From assembly GCA_024278555.1 (NCBI GenBank), contig JAJRSX010000141.1, forward strand, positions 1-5,803: a stretch of 5,803 bases of DNA. Direction: 5' to 3'. The position numbers and the translations under genes were made by a program. The stretch comes from a bacterium (GTDB lineage: Bacteria > CG2-30-53-67 > CG2-30-70-394). The first letter of the stretch is position 1. Each line of letters begins with the position of its first letter. Shown here piece after piece: positions 2 through 5,767 of the stretch. The notes under the pieces are model-generated. The model searched no databases, was not told the origin of the DNA, and worked only from the letters and a program-made list of their open reading frames with translations.

Positions 2-970
2 GCGCTCGCCCTCGTCTCCGTCGTCGGCCACCTCCTGGCGCGGCGGATCACCCGGCCGGTGGCGGCCCTCGCCACCGCCGCCTCCACGGTCGCCGGCGGC
101 GGCCATCCGGAGCCGGTGGGGACCGGCGCCGGCGGCGAGGTGGCGGAGCTCACCACCGCCTTCAACACGATGGTGGCGCGGCTGGAGGAGACCGAGCAGC
201 TCCGCATCGCCGCCGAGCGCCAGGCGGTGGCCGGGCGGCTGGCGGCGACCGTCGCCCACGAGGTGCGCAACCCCCTGTCGTCGGTCCAGATGCTGGTCCA
301 GATGGTCCGGGACCGCCTGCGCAGAGAGCCCACCCTCGCCGCCGAGGCCGCCTACACCGAGGTGGTCCTGCGCGAGGTGGCACGGGTGGAGTTGGTGGTC
401 CAGGACCTCCTCGACCTCGCCCACCCGCGCCCCCTGCGGCCGCGGCCGTGCGACCTCGAGCAGGTGGTGGAGGAGGTGGCGGCTCTCACCAGGGCGCAGC
501 TCGACCACCAGGGGATCGCGCTGCGCCGCGCCACCGAGGGGGCGCCGCGGCCGGTGGTGGCGGACCCGGAGCGGGTCAAGCAGGTGGTCCTCAACCTCCT
601 CCTCAACGGCGCCGGGGCGATGGCCGACGGCGGCGACCTGACCCTGGCGACCCGCTGGCCGCCGGCGGTGAACGCGGGGTGGGTGGAGATCGAGGTGCGC
701 GACTCGGGCGGCGGCATTGACCCGACCCAGGTGGAGGCGCTCTTCGAGCCCTTCCGCGCCGGTACCGCCACCGGCAGCGGGATCGGCCTCGGGGTGAGCC
801 GCCAGATCGCCCGGGACCACGGCGGCGACCTCTGCCTCGCCCCGGCAGACGGCGGCGGCACCCGAGCGATCCTCTCCCTCCCCCTCGCGCCACCGGCCGC
901 GGCGCGGCACGATGGCGACAACCCGCCCCCGACACCGCCGCCCTCCCCCACCCCAGGATCCACCCCATGA
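2..970 (+). CDS. Sensor histidine kinase, NtrB/AtoS-like (5' partial)
   Basis: This is the C-terminal part of a membrane-bound sensor kinase that autophosphorylates on histidine and passes the phosphate to the regulator encoded next door. The frame is open from base 2, so the true start and the sensor domain lie upstream. The first residues look like the end of a transmembrane helix, followed by a HAMP linker (RRITRPVAAL near 43-72). The H-box (VAHEVRNPLSS) carries the phospho-accepting His at 257-259. The ATP-binding domain follows: N-box Asn in NLLLNGAGAM at 605-607, G1 box DSGGGI from 701, F-box FEPF, and G2 box GSGIGLGVS near 773-799. No PAS domain lies between HAMP and H-box. The last 25 or so residues form a proline-rich tail. 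The stop overlaps the regulator start as ATGA, implying translational coupling. A GTG at 59 is an internal Val codon within HAMP, not the likely start. Family assignment is firm; the signal sensed is unknown. Confidence 0.95.
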   Translation, partial: ALALVSVVGHLLARRITRPVAALATAASTVAGGGHPEPVGTGAGGEVAELTTAFNTMVARLEETEQLRIAAERQAVAGRLAATVAHEVRNPLSSVQMLVQMVRDRLRREPTLAAEAAYTEVVLREVARVELVVQDLLDLAHPRPLRPRPCDLEQVVEEVAALTRAQLDHQGIALRRATEGAPRPVVADPERVKQVVLNLLLNGAGAMADGGDLTLATRWPPAVNAGWVEIEVRDSGGGIDPTQVEALFEPFRAGTATGSGIGLGVSRQIARDHGGDLCLAPADGGGTRAILSLPLAPPAAARHDGDNPPPTPPPSPTPGSTP

Positions 971-2397
971 GCCGCATCCTCGTGGTCGACGACGACGCCG
1001 CCATCTGCTTCGCCCTCGGCGAGTACCTGCGCGGCAGGGGCCACGCGGTGGAGACGGTGGCCACCGCCCGCGCCGCCCGGGCGCAACTGGAGGCAGCCCC
1101 CTTCGACCTCGCCCTGGTGGACATCCAGCTCCCCGGCGAGGACGGCCTCTCCCTCCTGGCGGAGATCCACCCCCGCTGGCCGGCCATGCCGGTGGTGATG
1201 ATCACCGCCCACGGCGGCCTGGAGCGGGCGGTGGCGGCGATGCAGGCGGGCGCCTACGACTATGTCACCAAGCCCCTGGATCTCGACCGCATGGGCGAGC
1301 TCCTGGCGCGGGCCCTCCGGCCCCGCCCCGCCCAACCGCCGCCCGAGGCGAGCCAGCCGTCGCCCCCGGAAAGCCACCCCCTGGTGGGCACCAGCGCGGT
1401 GATGCAGGAGCTCTTCAAGCACATTGGCCTGCTCACCACCAACGACCTCACGGTGCTTCTGTTGGGGGAGAGCGGCGTCGGCAAGGAGCGGGTGGCGCGC
1501 GCCATCCACCATAACAGCCCCCGCCGCGACGGCCCCTTCGTGGCGGTGAACTGCGCCGCGGTGCCGGAGACCCTCCTGGAGAGCGAGCTCTTCGGCCATG
1601 AGCGCGGCGCCTTCACCGGCGCCGATACGCGGCGGCCGGGGAAGTTCGAGGTCGCCGCCGGCGGCACCCTGCTGCTGGACGAGGTGGGCGACCTCCCCCT
1701 CGCCTTGCAGCCGAAGCTCCTGCGGGTTCTGCAGGAGCGCGAGCTCTACCGGGTCGGCGGCAGCCAGCGGATCCCGGTCGAGGCGCGGATCATCGCCGCC
1801 TCCAACCAGGATCTCGCCGCCGCGGTGGCCGCCGGCCGCTTCCGCAAGGACCTCTACTACCGCCTCCACGTCGCCACCCTCACCATCCCCCCCCTGCGCG
1901 ACCGGCCCGAGGACATCCCGCTGCTCGTCAACCACTTCCTCGGCCGGACCGCGGCGCTGCTCGCCACCCCACCGCCGGAGCTCGACGACGACTGCCTCCG
2001 ACAGCTCGCCTGCCAGCCGTGGCCCGGCAACGTGCGGGAGCTGGAGAACCTGATCCACCGCCTCTGCGCCTTTGCCCGGGCGCCGCGCCTCACCTGGGAG
2101 GAGGTCCGGCCCCACCTCGACCCGCCGCTCCCGGCCGGCGGCGAGGGCGGGAATCCGGAGAGGGCGTGGGAGGGCTACCTGCGCGGCGAGGTCCGCCGCC
2201 TCGCCGCTGCCGGCAGGGAGGCGGAGCCCGGCGACGGGGTCTTTCACTGGCTCACCGGACGGACCGAGGAGATCCTCCTCGACGAGGCCCTCACCCAGAC
2301 CGACGGCAACCAGGTGCGGGCGGCGAAGCTCCTCGGGATGCAGCGCTCGAGCCTACGCAAGAAGCTCAGCCACCGCCGTGATCGTGGCCACGAATGA
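967..2397 (+). CDS. Sigma-54-dependent NtrC-family response regulator
   Basis: This 476-residue DNA-binding activator couples phosphorylation to ATP-driven opening of sigma-54 promoters. The receiver domain is residues 1-120: acidic pocket VVDDD at 6-10, phospho-acceptor Asp52 in LVDIQLPGEDG, Thr80 and Lys102. A Pro-rich linker (118-137) leads to the AAA+ domain: Walker A GESGVGKE 168-174, the sigma-54 contact loop GAFTGA 214-219, Walker B LLLDEV 235-240, probable arginine fingers in FRKDLYYRL 292-300, and sensor II WPGNVREL 352-359. The C-terminus (about 435-470, TDGNQVRAAKLLGMQRSSL) is a Fis-type helix-turn-helix. All catalytic motifs are intact, so it should be a working activator. The ATG overlaps the kinase stop (ATGA) and has AGGA at 955-958, 8 nt upstream. 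The order receiver-AAA+-Fis matches AtoC/ZraR/NtrC-type proteins, but sequence alone does not say which. Its probable target is the sigma-54-like promoter 100 bp downstream. A stretch of about 45 residues (388-433) between AAA+ and HTH is longer than a minimal linker. Confidence 0.97.
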   Translation: MSRILVVDDDAAICFALGEYLRGRGHAVETVATARAARAQLEAAPFDLALVDIQLPGEDGLSLLAEIHPRWPAMPVVMITAHGGLERAVAAMQAGAYDYVTKPLDLDRMGELLARALRPRPAQPPPEASQPSPPESHPLVGTSAVMQELFKHIGLLTTNDLTVLLLGESGVGKERVARAIHHNSPRRDGPFVAVNCAAVPETLLESELFGHERGAFTGADTRRPGKFEVAAGGTLLLDEVGDLPLALQPKLLRVLQERELYRVGGSQRIPVEARIIAASNQDLAAAVAAGRFRKDLYYRLHVATLTIPPLRDRPEDIPLLVNHFLGRTAALLATPPPELDDDCLRQLACQPWPGNVRELENLIHRLCAFARAPRLTWEEVRPHLDPPLPAGGEGGNPERAWEGYLRGEVRRLAAAGREAEPGDGVFHWLTGRTEEILLDEALTQTDGNQVRAAKLLGMQRSSLRKKLSHRRDRGHE

Positions 2398-2438
2398 ACA
2401 CGAGGTGGCCACGCTGGAGGGTCGGTCGGGTGGTCCAC
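2382..2438. promoter_or_regulatory. Cluster of GTGG/CCAC palindromes, candidate activator-binding sites
   Basis: Three palindromic sites lie in a row. TCGTGGCCACGA is a perfect 12-bp palindrome at 2382-2393, inside the end of the regulator gene. GTGGCCAC is at 2405-2412, and GTGG-T-CCAC at 2430-2438. The first two centres are 21 bp apart, two helical turns. Relative to a start near 2525 predicted from the sigma-54 element, the centres are at about -137, -116 and -91, the usual distance for NtrC-type enhancer sites. A direct repeat CCGTGATCG (2376-2384 and 2440-2448) brackets the cluster. Caution: GTGGCCAC also occurs inside coding regions (1057-1064, 2898-2905, 4002-4009), where valine-alanine codon choice explains it. 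The assignment rests on clustering and position. Confidence 0.45.
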
Positions 2439-2498: not shown

Positions 2499-2514
2499 TG
2501 GCCCGGAGATTGCA
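2499..2514 (+). promoter_or_regulatory. Sigma-54 (RpoN) -24/-12 promoter for the ino1 operon
   Basis: TGGCCCG, four bases, then TTGCA matches the RpoN consensus TGGCACG-N4-TTGCW at 11 of 12 positions; the one difference is C for A in the -24 box. The invariant GG (2500-2501) and GC (2512-2513) are separated by exactly 10 bp, as required. Transcription would start at about 2524-2526, giving a leader of about 220 nt before the ino1 ATG. The element lies directly downstream of a gene for a sigma-54 activator with GAFTGA, and GTGG/CCAC palindromes sit at enhancer distance upstream. A TTGACA at 2469-2474 could be a sigma-70 -35 box, but nothing resembling a -10 box follows at 16-18 bp. Confidence 0.7.
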
Positions 2515-2563
2515 GTGGAGCTGGTATGGCCGTCGTCCTCCTAGGCTGCCGGGCCACTCCCGA

Positions 2564-2671
2564 CGTGGACACCCACGGGGTCCGGCGCCGCTCAGATGGC
2601 CTCCAGGTCGCTCGTGCCGCCGCTCCCTTCGAGCGTGGCGGCGCGAGCGACGCCTGGTGGTGGACCCCACC
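2564..2671 (+). promoter_or_regulatory. Structured 5' leader of ino1 with a long stem-loop
   Basis: The main element is an inverted repeat: GTCGCTCGTGCCGCC (2607-2621) pairs with GGCGGCGCGAGCGAC (2637-2651) with one G-U wobble in RNA. Inside it GCTC (2622-2625) pairs with GAGC (2631-2634) around the loop CCTTC, leaving a two-base bulge. Outside it CCAG (2603-2606) pairs with CTGG (2654-2657). GGGGTCC (2577-2583) can pair with GGACCCC (2662-2668), enclosing the whole hairpin, and CGTGG/CCACG (2564-2568, 2573-2577) forms a small neighbour, sharing G2577 with that outer helix. If the sigma-54 promoter is real, all this lies in the untranslated leader and could act as an attenuator, protein-binding site or RNA stabiliser. 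No U-run follows, so it is not a classical intrinsic terminator, although U-poor terminators occur in GC-rich genomes. I do not recognise a known riboswitch class. A REP-like mobile palindrome is another option. Confidence 0.6.
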
Positions 2672-2745: not shown

Positions 2746-3984
2746 ATGCCCCCCCCCCTTGCCCCCTTTGGCCTCTGGCTCGCCGGCGGCCGCGGTAACG
2801 TCGCCACCACCACCGCGGTCGGCGCCCACGCCGTCGCCCGGGGGCTCGCCCCCCCCACCGGCCTGGTGACCGAGCTCTCCGACCTCGCCGCGGTGGGGTG
2901 GCCACCCCTCGATGCAGTCCCCATCGGCGGCTGGGAGGTGGCGGAGACCACCCTGATGGAGCGGGCCCGCGCCCTCACCGGCCCCGGCGGCTTCCTCCGC
3001 CCGGAGCATGTGGAGGCGGCGAGCGGCTGGCTCGCGGCGTGTGACGCGGAGATCCGTCCCGGCACCACCCGCGGCTGCGGCGCCGCCATCGAGCTTGTCG
3101 CCGGCCACGGCAGCCACGCCCCCGCCGCCGACCTGGTGGAGCAGTTCAAAAGGGACCTGACCGCCTACCGTGATCGCCACCACCTCGACACGGTGGTGGT
3201 GGTCAACCTCGCCTCCACCGCGGCCCCCCCCCCCGCCCCCTTTCCCGGCGCCGACCTCGCTGCCCTGCGCACCGCGATCGCCGCCGACGACCCCACCCTC
3301 CCCGCCTCCATCCTCTACGCGGTCGCCGCCCTGGAGGCGGGGGCCGCGTGGATCAACTTCACCCCGTCGCCCGGCGGGAGCTGCGCCGCCCTCGTCACCC
3401 TCGCGGAGGAGCGCGGCCTGCCGATCTACGGCAGCGACGGCAAGACCGGCGAAACGCTCATGAAGTCGGCCCTGGCGCCGCTCTTTGCCATGCGCCACCT
3501 GCGGGTGCTGGCGTGGGAGGGGTACAACCTCCTGGGCAACGGCGACGGCGCGGTCCTCGACGACCCGGCGAACAAGCAGACCAAGGTGGCCTCGAAGGAC
3601 CACCTCCTGGGCGAGATCCTCGGCTACGCCCCCCACACCCGGGTGGGGATCGACTACGTGCCGTCGCTCGACGACTGGAAGACGGCGTGGGACCTGATCC
3701 ACTTCGAGGGGTTCCTGGGGACGCGCATGACCCTCCAGTTCACCTGGCAGGGGTGCGACTCGGCCCTCGCCGCGCCGCTCATCCTCGACCTCGCCCGCCT
3801 CGCCGCCCTCGCCCGCCGCCGGGGCGAGGCGGGGCGGATGGACCACCTCGCCTCCTTCTTCAAGAGCCCCATGGGGTGCACCACCCACGACCTCACCCCT
3901 CAGTTCGAGCGGCTCCGCCACTACCTCGCGGCGGTGGCCGCCGAGGTTGGGGCGCCGCGAGAGGAGGCGGAGGAGGGGGGATGA
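2746..3984 (+). CDS. ino1: myo-Inositol-1-phosphate synthase (inositol-3-phosphate synthase)
   Basis: This 412-residue cytoplasmic NAD-dependent enzyme (EC 5.5.1.4) converts glucose 6-phosphate to 1L-myo-inositol 1-phosphate, the first step to inositol, inositol lipids and inositol-based solutes. A Rossmann-like nucleotide-binding start is seen (GLWLAGGRGNVATTT, residues 9-23). Family hallmarks follow: AWINFTPSPGGS 201-212, GSDGKTGETLMKS 229-241, the segment EGYNLLGNGDGAVL 258-271, the lysine-rich NKQTKVASKD 276-285, and DYVPSLDDWK 303-312. The lysines in these segments and near FFKSP (371-375) are the likely catalytic ones, by family knowledge. The frame stays open to an ATG at 2596, but those 50 extra residues resemble no part of the family and overlap the leader hairpin. 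The ATG at 2746 puts the nucleotide fold at the N-terminus as expected. Runs of C10 (2749-2758), C8 and C11 (3224-3234) lie in the gene without breaking the frame. The stop overlaps the next start as ATGA. Confidence 0.93.
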   Translation: MPPPLAPFGLWLAGGRGNVATTTAVGAHAVARGLAPPTGLVTELSDLAAVGWPPLDAVPIGGWEVAETTLMERARALTGPGGFLRPEHVEAASGWLAACDAEIRPGTTRGCGAAIELVAGHGSHAPAADLVEQFKRDLTAYRDRHHLDTVVVVNLASTAAPPPAPFPGADLAALRTAIAADDPTLPASILYAVAALEAGAAWINFTPSPGGSCAALVTLAEERGLPIYGSDGKTGETLMKSALAPLFAMRHLRVLAWEGYNLLGNGDGAVLDDPANKQTKVASKDHLLGEILGYAPHTRVGIDYVPSLDDWKTAWDLIHFEGFLGTRMTLQFTWQGCDSALAAPLILDLARLAALARRRGEAGRMDHLASFFKSPMGCTTHDLTPQFERLRHYLAAVAAEVGAPREEAEEGG

Positions 3985-4673
3985 ACCGCGCCTCCCTCGC
4001 CGTGGCCACCGTGGCGGCCGTCGCCCTCCTCGCCGTCGCCCTCCGCCACCCCCTGGCCGCGGTCGGGGCCGCCCCGGGCCTCGCCATGGTCGCCGCCCTC
4101 GGCGTCCTCCTCTGTCCCGGCCACGGCTGGCGCGGCGCCGCCCCCACCCTCACCTGGGTCGTGGCCGGCCCAACCGCCGCCGCCCAAATGGCCCTCGTGG
4201 GGCCGTGCATCGCGGGGATCGCGGTGGCCCTCCCCACCCTCGTGGCGCTCCTCCCGGTCGCCGCCCTCCCCGCCGCCCTCGTCTACCTCGCCGTCGGAGT
4301 GGCCCTGGCCACCGGCCTCTCCCTCCGCGCCACCACGGCCGCGACCGCCGCCGGCCGGGTCGCCGCCGCCCTCGCCCTCCTCTACGGCGCCCCCCTCTAC
4401 CTCCTCCTGGTCGCCGAGCTCTTCCCCCACCCCGAGCAGGCGATCGCCACCGCCCTCCCCCTCTGGCCGCCGGCGGTGGCCGCCGCCCTCACCGGGGTTG
4501 ACCTGGCGCGGCAAGGGTGGGCATACGCCCACCTCCCCCTCGCCTACTACCCGTACCACTACCCGGCCGCCCTCCTCGCCGCCCTGCCGATTGCCGCCGC
4601 CGCCCTCTCCCTCCACCTGACCCTCTGGCGCCGCCCCCACTATGGCTGGCGCCTCTCGACCTGGAGCCCGTGA
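3981..4673 (+). CDS. Multi-pass membrane protein of unknown family
   Basis: This 230-residue protein is extremely rich in Ala, Leu, Val and Pro, with about six or seven probable membrane helices (roughly 5-21, 27-44, 57-82, 84-113, 126-146, 158-171, 195-216). The last segment is followed by a basic tail (WRRPHYGWR). No aspartate-rich DxxxD motif of UbiA prenyltransferases or CDP-alcohol phosphotransferase signature is present, so it is not an evident inositol-lipid synthase. The section SLRATTAATAAGRVAAALAL followed by a helix and a proline-rich loop vaguely recalls ABC-2-type permease subunits, but this is only an impression. The start is the ATG overlapping the ino1 stop, with a strong purine-rich Shine-Dalgarno (GGAGGAGG, 3969-3976) inside the end of ino1, so translation is coupled. 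The gene lies between ino1 and a secreted protein, suggesting an envelope role. The codon pattern (third position nearly all C or G) matches its neighbours, so it is a real gene. Confidence 0.85.
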   Translation: MNRASLAVATVAAVALLAVALRHPLAAVGAAPGLAMVAALGVLLCPGHGWRGAAPTLTWVVAGPTAAAQMALVGPCIAGIAVALPTLVALLPVAALPAALVYLAVGVALATGLSLRATTAATAAGRVAAALALLYGAPLYLLLVAELFPHPEQAIATALPLWPPAVAAALTGVDLARQGWAYAHLPLAYYPYHYPAALLAALPIAAAALSLHLTLWRRPHYGWRLSTWSP

Positions 4674-4675
4674 CC

Positions 4676-5767
4676 ATGCGCCGTATCGCCCTCGCCCTTG
4701 CCGCCTGCTGCTCCCTCGCCCTCGCCCCGATCGCCGCCGCCCAGGAGCCGGGCAAGCCCATGGGCCTCCACGAGGCGACCAAGCGTGGCGTCGACCGCGC
4801 CCTGCGCTGGCTGCGCCACGAGCAGGGCAAGGACGGCTCGTGGTCCGGCCACCCGGGGATCACCTCCCTGGTGGCGCTGGCCTACCTCCGCTCGCCGCGC
4901 CACTACCACGAGGGCGACGGCCCCTTCCTCGACCGCGCCATCACCTACCTCACCACCAAGGCCCACCCGAACGGCGCCATCTACGACCGCGACAACCCCG
5001 GCTACAACACCGCCCTCGCCGTCCAGGTCCTGGCGGAGACGAAGAACCCCGCCTACCGGCCGCTCATCGATAAGGCGTCCGCCTACCTGCGCGGTATCCA
5101 GGCGCGGGACAAGACCGGCTACCCGCAGAGCCACAAGTACTACGGCGGCATCGGCTACGGCGGCGACGAGCGGCCCGACCTCTCCAACCTCCAGTTCGCG
5201 GTCGAGGCCCTGCGCGCCGCCGACACCGACCCGAAGGACCCGGCGTGGGGCCGCGCCATCCAGTTCATCTCCCGCTGCCAGAACCGCAGCGAGTCGAACG
5301 ACCAGCCGTGGGCCGCCAACGACGGCGGCTTCGTCTACGCCCCCGGGGAGTCGTTCGCCGGCGGGACCCGCTCCTACGGCTCGATGACCTTCGCCGGGAT
5401 CAAGTCGCTCCTCTTCGCCCGCGTCGACAAAACGGACCCGCGGGTGGCGGCGGGGGTCGATTGGGCCCGCCACCACTACTCGGTGGAGGAGAACCCGGGC
5501 CTCGGCCAGCAGGGGTACTACTACTATGTGGACACCTTCGCCCGCACCCTGGCGCTCCTCGGCGAGCCGACCCTGAAGTCCGCCGACGGCGCCACCCACC
5601 GATGGGCGGAGGAGCTGGCGCACAAGCTCCTCGCGATGCAGGACGAGGCGGGGTGGTGGTCGAACCCGGTGGGCCGCTGGTGGGAGGGGAACAAGCACCT
5701 CGCCACCGCCCACGCCTGCCTGGCCCTGGCCGCCTGTTACCCCTTCCTCACTGACGAGGCGCGGTAA
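4676..5767 (+). CDS. Secreted squalene-cyclase/prenyltransferase-repeat protein
   Basis: This 363-residue exported protein starts with a signal peptide: MRR, a hydrophobic core, and a probable signal peptidase I site after Ala22 (AAA|QE). The two cysteines at 11-12 lie within the core, so it does not look like a lipoprotein. The mature part is a series of alpha-alpha repeats of the squalene-hopene-cyclase/prenyltransferase-beta/pectate-lyase type: RALRWLRHEQGKDGSW (41-56, a QW-like motif), AITYLTTKAHPNGAIYD (88-104), ASAYLRGIQARDKTGYP (134-150), AIQFISRCQ...DGGFVY (194-221), GVDWARHHYS..GQQGYYYY (260-284) and LLAMQDEAGWW (318-328). The DxDD acid motif of squalene-hopene cyclases is absent, and the protein is about half the length of those enzymes, so hopanoid synthesis is unlikely. 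The fold suggests a six-hairpin barrel that binds or cleaves a hydrophobic or polysaccharide ligand outside the cytoplasm. The start ATG is 2 nt after the previous stop, with GGAG at 4663-4666; a longer frame to 4517 would lose the signal peptide. Substrate unknown. Confidence 0.88.
   Translation: MRRIALALAACCSLALAPIAAAQEPGKPMGLHEATKRGVDRALRWLRHEQGKDGSWSGHPGITSLVALAYLRSPRHYHEGDGPFLDRAITYLTTKAHPNGAIYDRDNPGYNTALAVQVLAETKNPAYRPLIDKASAYLRGIQARDKTGYPQSHKYYGGIGYGGDERPDLSNLQFAVEALRAADTDPKDPAWGRAIQFISRCQNRSESNDQPWAANDGGFVYAPGESFAGGTRSYGSMTFAGIKSLLFARVDKTDPRVAAGVDWARHHYSVEENPGLGQQGYYYYVDTFARTLALLGEPTLKSADGATHRWAEELAHKLLAMQDEAGWWSNPVGRWWEGNKHLATAHACLALAACYPFLTDEAR

Follow-up and report, generated by a model that had tools for sequence, protein, structure and literature searches.

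The sigma-54-like element at positions 2499-2514 of the window (the whole 5,803-nucleotide stretch of DNA that was analysed) is, judging from sequence comparison, very probably a real promoter run by the two-component system encoded upstream of it. The first transcript made from it is probably a folded RNA of about 130 nt, for which a regulatory role, like that of CrcZ beside cbrB, seems most likely. The promoter may perhaps also drive ino1 itself. The following features were recognised upstream of the RNA:

2..970, + strand: sensor histidine kinase gene, 3′ part, with HAMP, HisKA and HATPase_c domains (Pfam)
967..2397, + strand: complete gene for an NtrC-type response regulator with receiver domain, sigma-54 AAA+ domain carrying GAFTGA and Fis-type HTH
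2382..2393, no strand assigned: candidate activator site 1, a perfect 12-bp palindrome, TCGTGGCCACGA, centred at about -137
2403..2414, no strand assigned: candidate activator site 2, GAGGTGGCCACG, centred at about -116
2499..2514, + strand: predicted sigma-54 (-24/-12) promoter, TGGCCCG-GAGA-TTGCA, TGGCCCGGAGATTGCA
2525..2526, + strand: predicted transcription start, 12-13 nt 3′ of the GC

The element has GG at 2500-2501 and GC at 2512-2513, and thus N10 spacing, and shows a single mismatch (A5 to C) to TGGCACG-N4-TTGCW. The sequence-only reading had reported this motif, with its coordinates, exact GG-N10-GC spacing and one mismatch, and had placed it about 100 bp after a complete gene for a GAFTGA activator. 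Re-reading of the sequence agreed, the open reading frame at 967-2397 ending 102 bp upstream of the element. The presence of rpoN, named there as a check, was also borne out by one gene in the genome (E 6e-61, open frame of 538 aa). As a bare motif, the element is within chance at the scope of the whole window, where a search of both strands with at most 2 mismatches gave one match and 1.7 were expected. When only the + strand of the 348-bp gap between the regulator and ino1 was considered, with at most 1 mismatch, the motif was present in 1 of 3000 dinucleotide shuffles, and a chance match in this gap is therefore unlikely. In the genome (3.06 Mb in 211 contigs) sigma-54 sites are clearly over-represented: TGGCNCG-N4-TTGCW was found at 22 sites, against 3 for the reversed control pattern, and most of them (17 of the 22) were TGGCACG. 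The TGGCCCG form found here is rare (2 of the 22), which speaks against our main reading.

The site was lifted above chance by its conservation in register in the single syntenic relative, and this conservation outweighs the motif statistics as evidence for a promoter. We found one congener only (G001), whose contig C145 shares its layout with L048, the locus from Nitrospirae bacterium CG2_30_70_394. L048 has the same gene order, from the kinase through the regulator and ino1 to the two genes that follow, and all conservation and covariation results given here come from two genomes. The promoter counterpart at L048 position 4255, TGGCCCACCGCTTGC, was identical at 10 out of 10 positions of TGGCCC-N5-TTGC. 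Only 1 of 5 positions was shared in the spacer between TGGCCC and TTGC, and 2 of the 9 bases 3′ of TTGC. Identity was about 50% across the regulator-ino1 gap and about 50% or less in the flanks of the motif, compared with a yardstick of 74% at fourfold-degenerate coding sites. Retention of the element upstream of ino1 in a relative with the same gene order, another point raised from the sequence alone, was therefore confirmed, but the site in L048 departs from the extended consensus at 3 positions, which also counts against the main reading. Among 89 loci with related synthases, the regulator-ino1 arrangement was kept only in L048; in L067 and L093 a regulator lies near ino1 on the opposite strand.

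Downstream of the sigma-54-like element, a block at 2523-2590 was 94% identical to L048 over 68 bp, and its start agrees with the predicted +1 within 2 nt. The motif could instead be a chance occurrence, and the RNA could owe its transcription to a different promoter, such as that of the kinase-regulator operon through read-through. The lack of a window-wide excess and the rarity of TGGCCCG would fit this, but we consider it improbable in view of the shuffled gap sequences and the fully conserved motif standing in register with the RNA start. In addition, a scan of 2300-2850 for sigma-70-type promoters returned zero matches; a sigma-70 promoter was rejected, since no match scored and a TTGACA at 2469 is not conserved in L048.

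The regulator is 80% identical to its copy in the congener. In same-class genomes no orthologous regulator was found, only matches of about 40-47%, like those of this genome's own paralogues; strong NtrC-type regulator matches in this genome number about 22. Candidate activator site 1 is identical at L048 4139-4150, and the counterpart of site 2 is located at L048 4160-4171 (GAGGTGGCCAGC). In both genomes these tandem GTGGCCA palindromes have centres 21 bp apart, and their distance to the promoter is the same within 1 bp. The exact paired core is rare, with 2 occurrences in this genome and 4 in that of the relative. Sigma-54 upstream activator sites usually lie at about -80 to -150, and both palindrome centres fall inside this range. 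We suggest that the palindromes are candidate binding sites of the adjacent regulator. Site 2 is outside coding sequence, but site 1 extends into the final codons of the regulator gene and may owe some of its conservation to coding constraint, and this position within a gene is a further point against the main reading.

The kinase gene is cut at the contig edge, and comparison with L048 showed that its 5′ end region lies on another contig of this genome, C20, which abuts the window start. The gene divergent from the kinase has a conserved sigma-54-like site of its own:

L026 (G000:C20) 1501-1516 and L048 975-990, - strand: second sigma-54-like site, a conserved motif, GGTGGCGCG-N4-TTGCA (TGGCGCG-N4-TTGCA) in both genomes

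This site is surrounded by a poorly conserved stretch. The product of the divergent gene looks like a secreted protein, and its L048 counterpart matches a PKD domain. Because two conserved sigma-54-like sites flank one two-component system, we argue that this system may control both flanks. The earlier proposal that the adjacent two-component system drives a sigma-54 promoter is thus supported by rpoN, the conserved site, the candidate palindromes and the second flanking site.

The transcribed region 3′ of the predicted start contained the following:

2526..2655, + strand: conserved structured RNA domain of about 130 nt, predicted from covariation and shuffled alignments
2528-2534/2595-2601, + strand: stem P1, GGCCGUC/GAUGGCC
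2535-2543, + strand: exposed, unpaired loop, GUCCUCCUA, containing UCCUCC
2544-2589, + strand: long hairpin P2/P3, a shared fold
2607-2651, + strand: covarying 19-bp hairpin P4

Because the window is GC-rich and its coding stretches fold equally strongly by MFE, MFE alone was uninformative, and covariation and shuffled alignments were used. The two genomes aligned without gaps over 130 columns from 2526. All of the 43 pairs are standard in both genomes: 34 are unchanged, 5 changed on one side, 4 are compensatory and none is broken. On the + strand the 5 one-sided changes all give G-U-type pairs, whereas on the - strand they would break the pairing, and the structure conservation index was 0.98 on + and 0.80 on -, favouring + as the RNA-bearing strand. 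Alignment shuffles gave z values of -7.9 for the whole domain, -8.4 for P4 alone and -3.3 for the 5′ portion, against a background of 169 windows of the two-genome alignment in which z was no lower than -3.0. The value of -7.9 applies to the gapless alignment from separate MAFFT runs of the region; a sliding-window scan of the automatic whole-locus alignment missed the RNA (z -0.37 at 2505). We conclude that 2526-2655 is predicted to encode a conserved folded RNA matching no described family. Rfam gave no family match, only one chance-level match below the gathering score. Good matches to a covariance model among 41 genomes were found only in the two congeners, so the RNA appears confined to this genus as far as could be searched. 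A repeat or mobile element was rejected, the block being single-copy in both genomes.

A plain sigma-54 promoter for ino1, with a downstream structure that has no role, would draw on the same promoter evidence (rpoN, the site excess, conservation and shuffles). This, the simple form of the earlier proposal, is rather unlikely, as it leaves unexplained why diverged non-coding DNA should contain a block of 94% identity and a hairpin that covaries. The conserved block might also be a short coding sequence and not an RNA element: all 4 substitutions up to 2590 share one codon phase, as do 17 of the 29 up to 2651, the first ones being synonymous in that frame. However, no start codon (ATG, GTG or TTG) follows the predicted start in the favoured frame, and the upstream sequence is in different frames in the two genomes owing to a 1-nt indel at 2525. 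If the ATG at 2526 is taken to set the frame, the first three substitutions alter amino acids. Moreover, paired positions of P4 share phases, which inflates the phase count, and coding would not explain the intact 19-bp hairpin. The codon-phase signal was judged weaker than the structure signal, and we regard a short coding sequence as very improbable.

The genes that follow the RNA were:

2746..3984, + strand: ino1, myo-inositol-1-phosphate synthase (Pfam PF07994, PF01658)
3981..4673, + strand: hydrophobic protein of 230 aa, no family, overlapping the ino1 stop
4676..5767, + strand: protein with a squalene-hopene cyclase C-terminal-like domain, after a 2-bp gap

Since it overlaps the ino1 stop, the gene at 3981..4673 probably belongs to the ino1 operon. 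In L048 (6608-9677) the operon continues with the cyclase-like protein, a 341-aa protein of no family and an ABC transporter ATPase, so that a role in export or in the cell envelope may be suspected. Outside the genus, the nearest synthases (about 45-53% identity) belong to Planctomycetota and haloarchaea, and same-class genomes lack a close match, which suggests that ino1 may have been acquired by lateral transfer.

The element had originally been described as preceding an operon for inositol-phosphate synthase. The gene order agrees with this, but the structured RNA comes first and ino1 begins about 220 nt after the predicted start (410 nt in L048). The RNA might act in cis as the 5′ leader of ino1 and its operon, with sigma-54 transcription running through it, and tune stability, termination or translation. 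A U-tract terminator is absent from the stretch separating the RNA from ino1 in both genomes, so read-through is possible, and hairpin plus U-run terminators do occur elsewhere in this genome. The stretch at 2652-2745 (49% identity to L048, with no conserved stretch) shows no separate conserved ino1 promoter, synteny with L048 is kept and the genes after ino1 are tightly packed. A leader nevertheless seems to us somewhat less likely than a released RNA. The distance from the end of P4 to ino1 varies (about 93 nt here, 278 nt in L048), the ribosome-binding region of ino1 lacks conservation, and P1 is predicted not to form in the longer read-through transcript, which disfavours a leader if folding is at equilibrium.

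We tentatively prefer a released, trans-acting RNA that would be sigma-54-driven, would carry an exposed anti-Shine-Dalgarno loop and would be linked to inositol-phosphate synthesis in a genome where no Hfq gene was found. The variable distance to ino1 and the non-conserved gap agree with a released RNA, and P1 and the loop are well formed only in the short RNA, where the predicted unpaired probability of UCCUCC was about 0.85 or more in both genomes. Against the released RNA, a discrete 3′ end is not evident, with no run of at least four T after P4 in the window, and an Hfq gene was found in none of the 9 genomes searched, including this one, although control searches were positive.

In the mechanism that we propose, the kinase would respond to a signal and phosphorylate its NtrC-type partner, which would then bind the palindromes overlapping and following the end of its own gene and remodel RNA polymerase-sigma-54 held at 2499-2514. 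Transcription would start near 2525-2526 and first yield the RNA of about 130 nt, with the 5′ closing stem, the UCCUCC loop, the long hairpin and the 19-bp hairpin, ending presumably after the last of these. The loop could pair with the Shine-Dalgarno regions of other mRNAs, and part of the transcription would perhaps continue into ino1.

The layout is most like that of cbrA-cbrB-crcZ in Pseudomonas and Azotobacter, where the regulatory RNA lies directly downstream of a CbrB-activated sigma-54 promoter (PMC8871633, PMC6292655). Both loci have a kinase gene, an NtrC-type regulator gene, a sigma-54 promoter and then an RNA, and this parallel would support the small RNA form. The RNA here lies directly 3′ of an NtrC-type regulator, as CrcZ does, and we do not claim membership of the CrcZ family. 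Unlike CrcZ, it is only about 130 nt long, highly folded and without an Rfam family match. CrcZ sequesters Hfq/Crc, whereas no Hfq gene was found here; the CbrB subsites are TGTTAC/GTAACA and those here GTGGCCAC; and the RNA here is followed by ino1. In Vibrio, the NtrC-family activator LuxO drives the sigma-54-dependent Qrr RNAs (PMC10162802), but our RNA had no Rfam match to Qrr, the lineage is unrelated and no quorum-sensing genes were seen in the window. The UCCUCC loop resembles the unpaired CCUCC-type anti-Shine-Dalgarno motifs between the stems of NfeR1, an alpha-r14 sRNA of rhizobia (PMC10746234). NfeR1 has three such loops and not one, and it is under LsrB and repressed by NtrC, not made from a sigma-54 promoter adjoining its own activator. 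Dedicated transcriptional control of ino1 is described for IpsA in Corynebacteria and Mycobacteria (PMC3899939), but IpsA is a LacI-type regulator. No paper on sigma-54 control of ino1 was found in the literature searched.

If our main reading is true, an undescribed structured RNA joins the small set of regulatory RNAs made by sigma-54, and the CbrAB-CrcZ / LuxO-Qrr layout exists in a distant uncultured lineage that apparently lacks Hfq. A leader function of the RNA would instead indicate riboregulation of bacterial inositol-phosphate synthesis, of which we know no earlier sign. In both cases the prediction is precise, with a single start site, a single RNA and a single regulator.

Sigma-54 sites were found upstream of ino1 elsewhere in 3 of 82 loci, against 0.48 expected. 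In the Planctomycetota loci L066 and L077 the consensus TGGCACGTCGGTTGC lies about 90 bases before the ino1 match, and in L063, also from Planctomycetota, TGGCGCGCCGGTTGC is found at about -277. As two of the three sites come from closely related genomes, we did not consider sigma-54 control of ino1 elsewhere convincing. In the present genome, several TGGCACG-N4-TTGCW sites (L030, L038, L042 and others in L026-L047) precede genes for proteins with PEP-CTERM-like tails or a gene that we take to encode an acyltransferase. The canonical sigma-54 set may thus be largely a PEP-CTERM/exosortase regulon.
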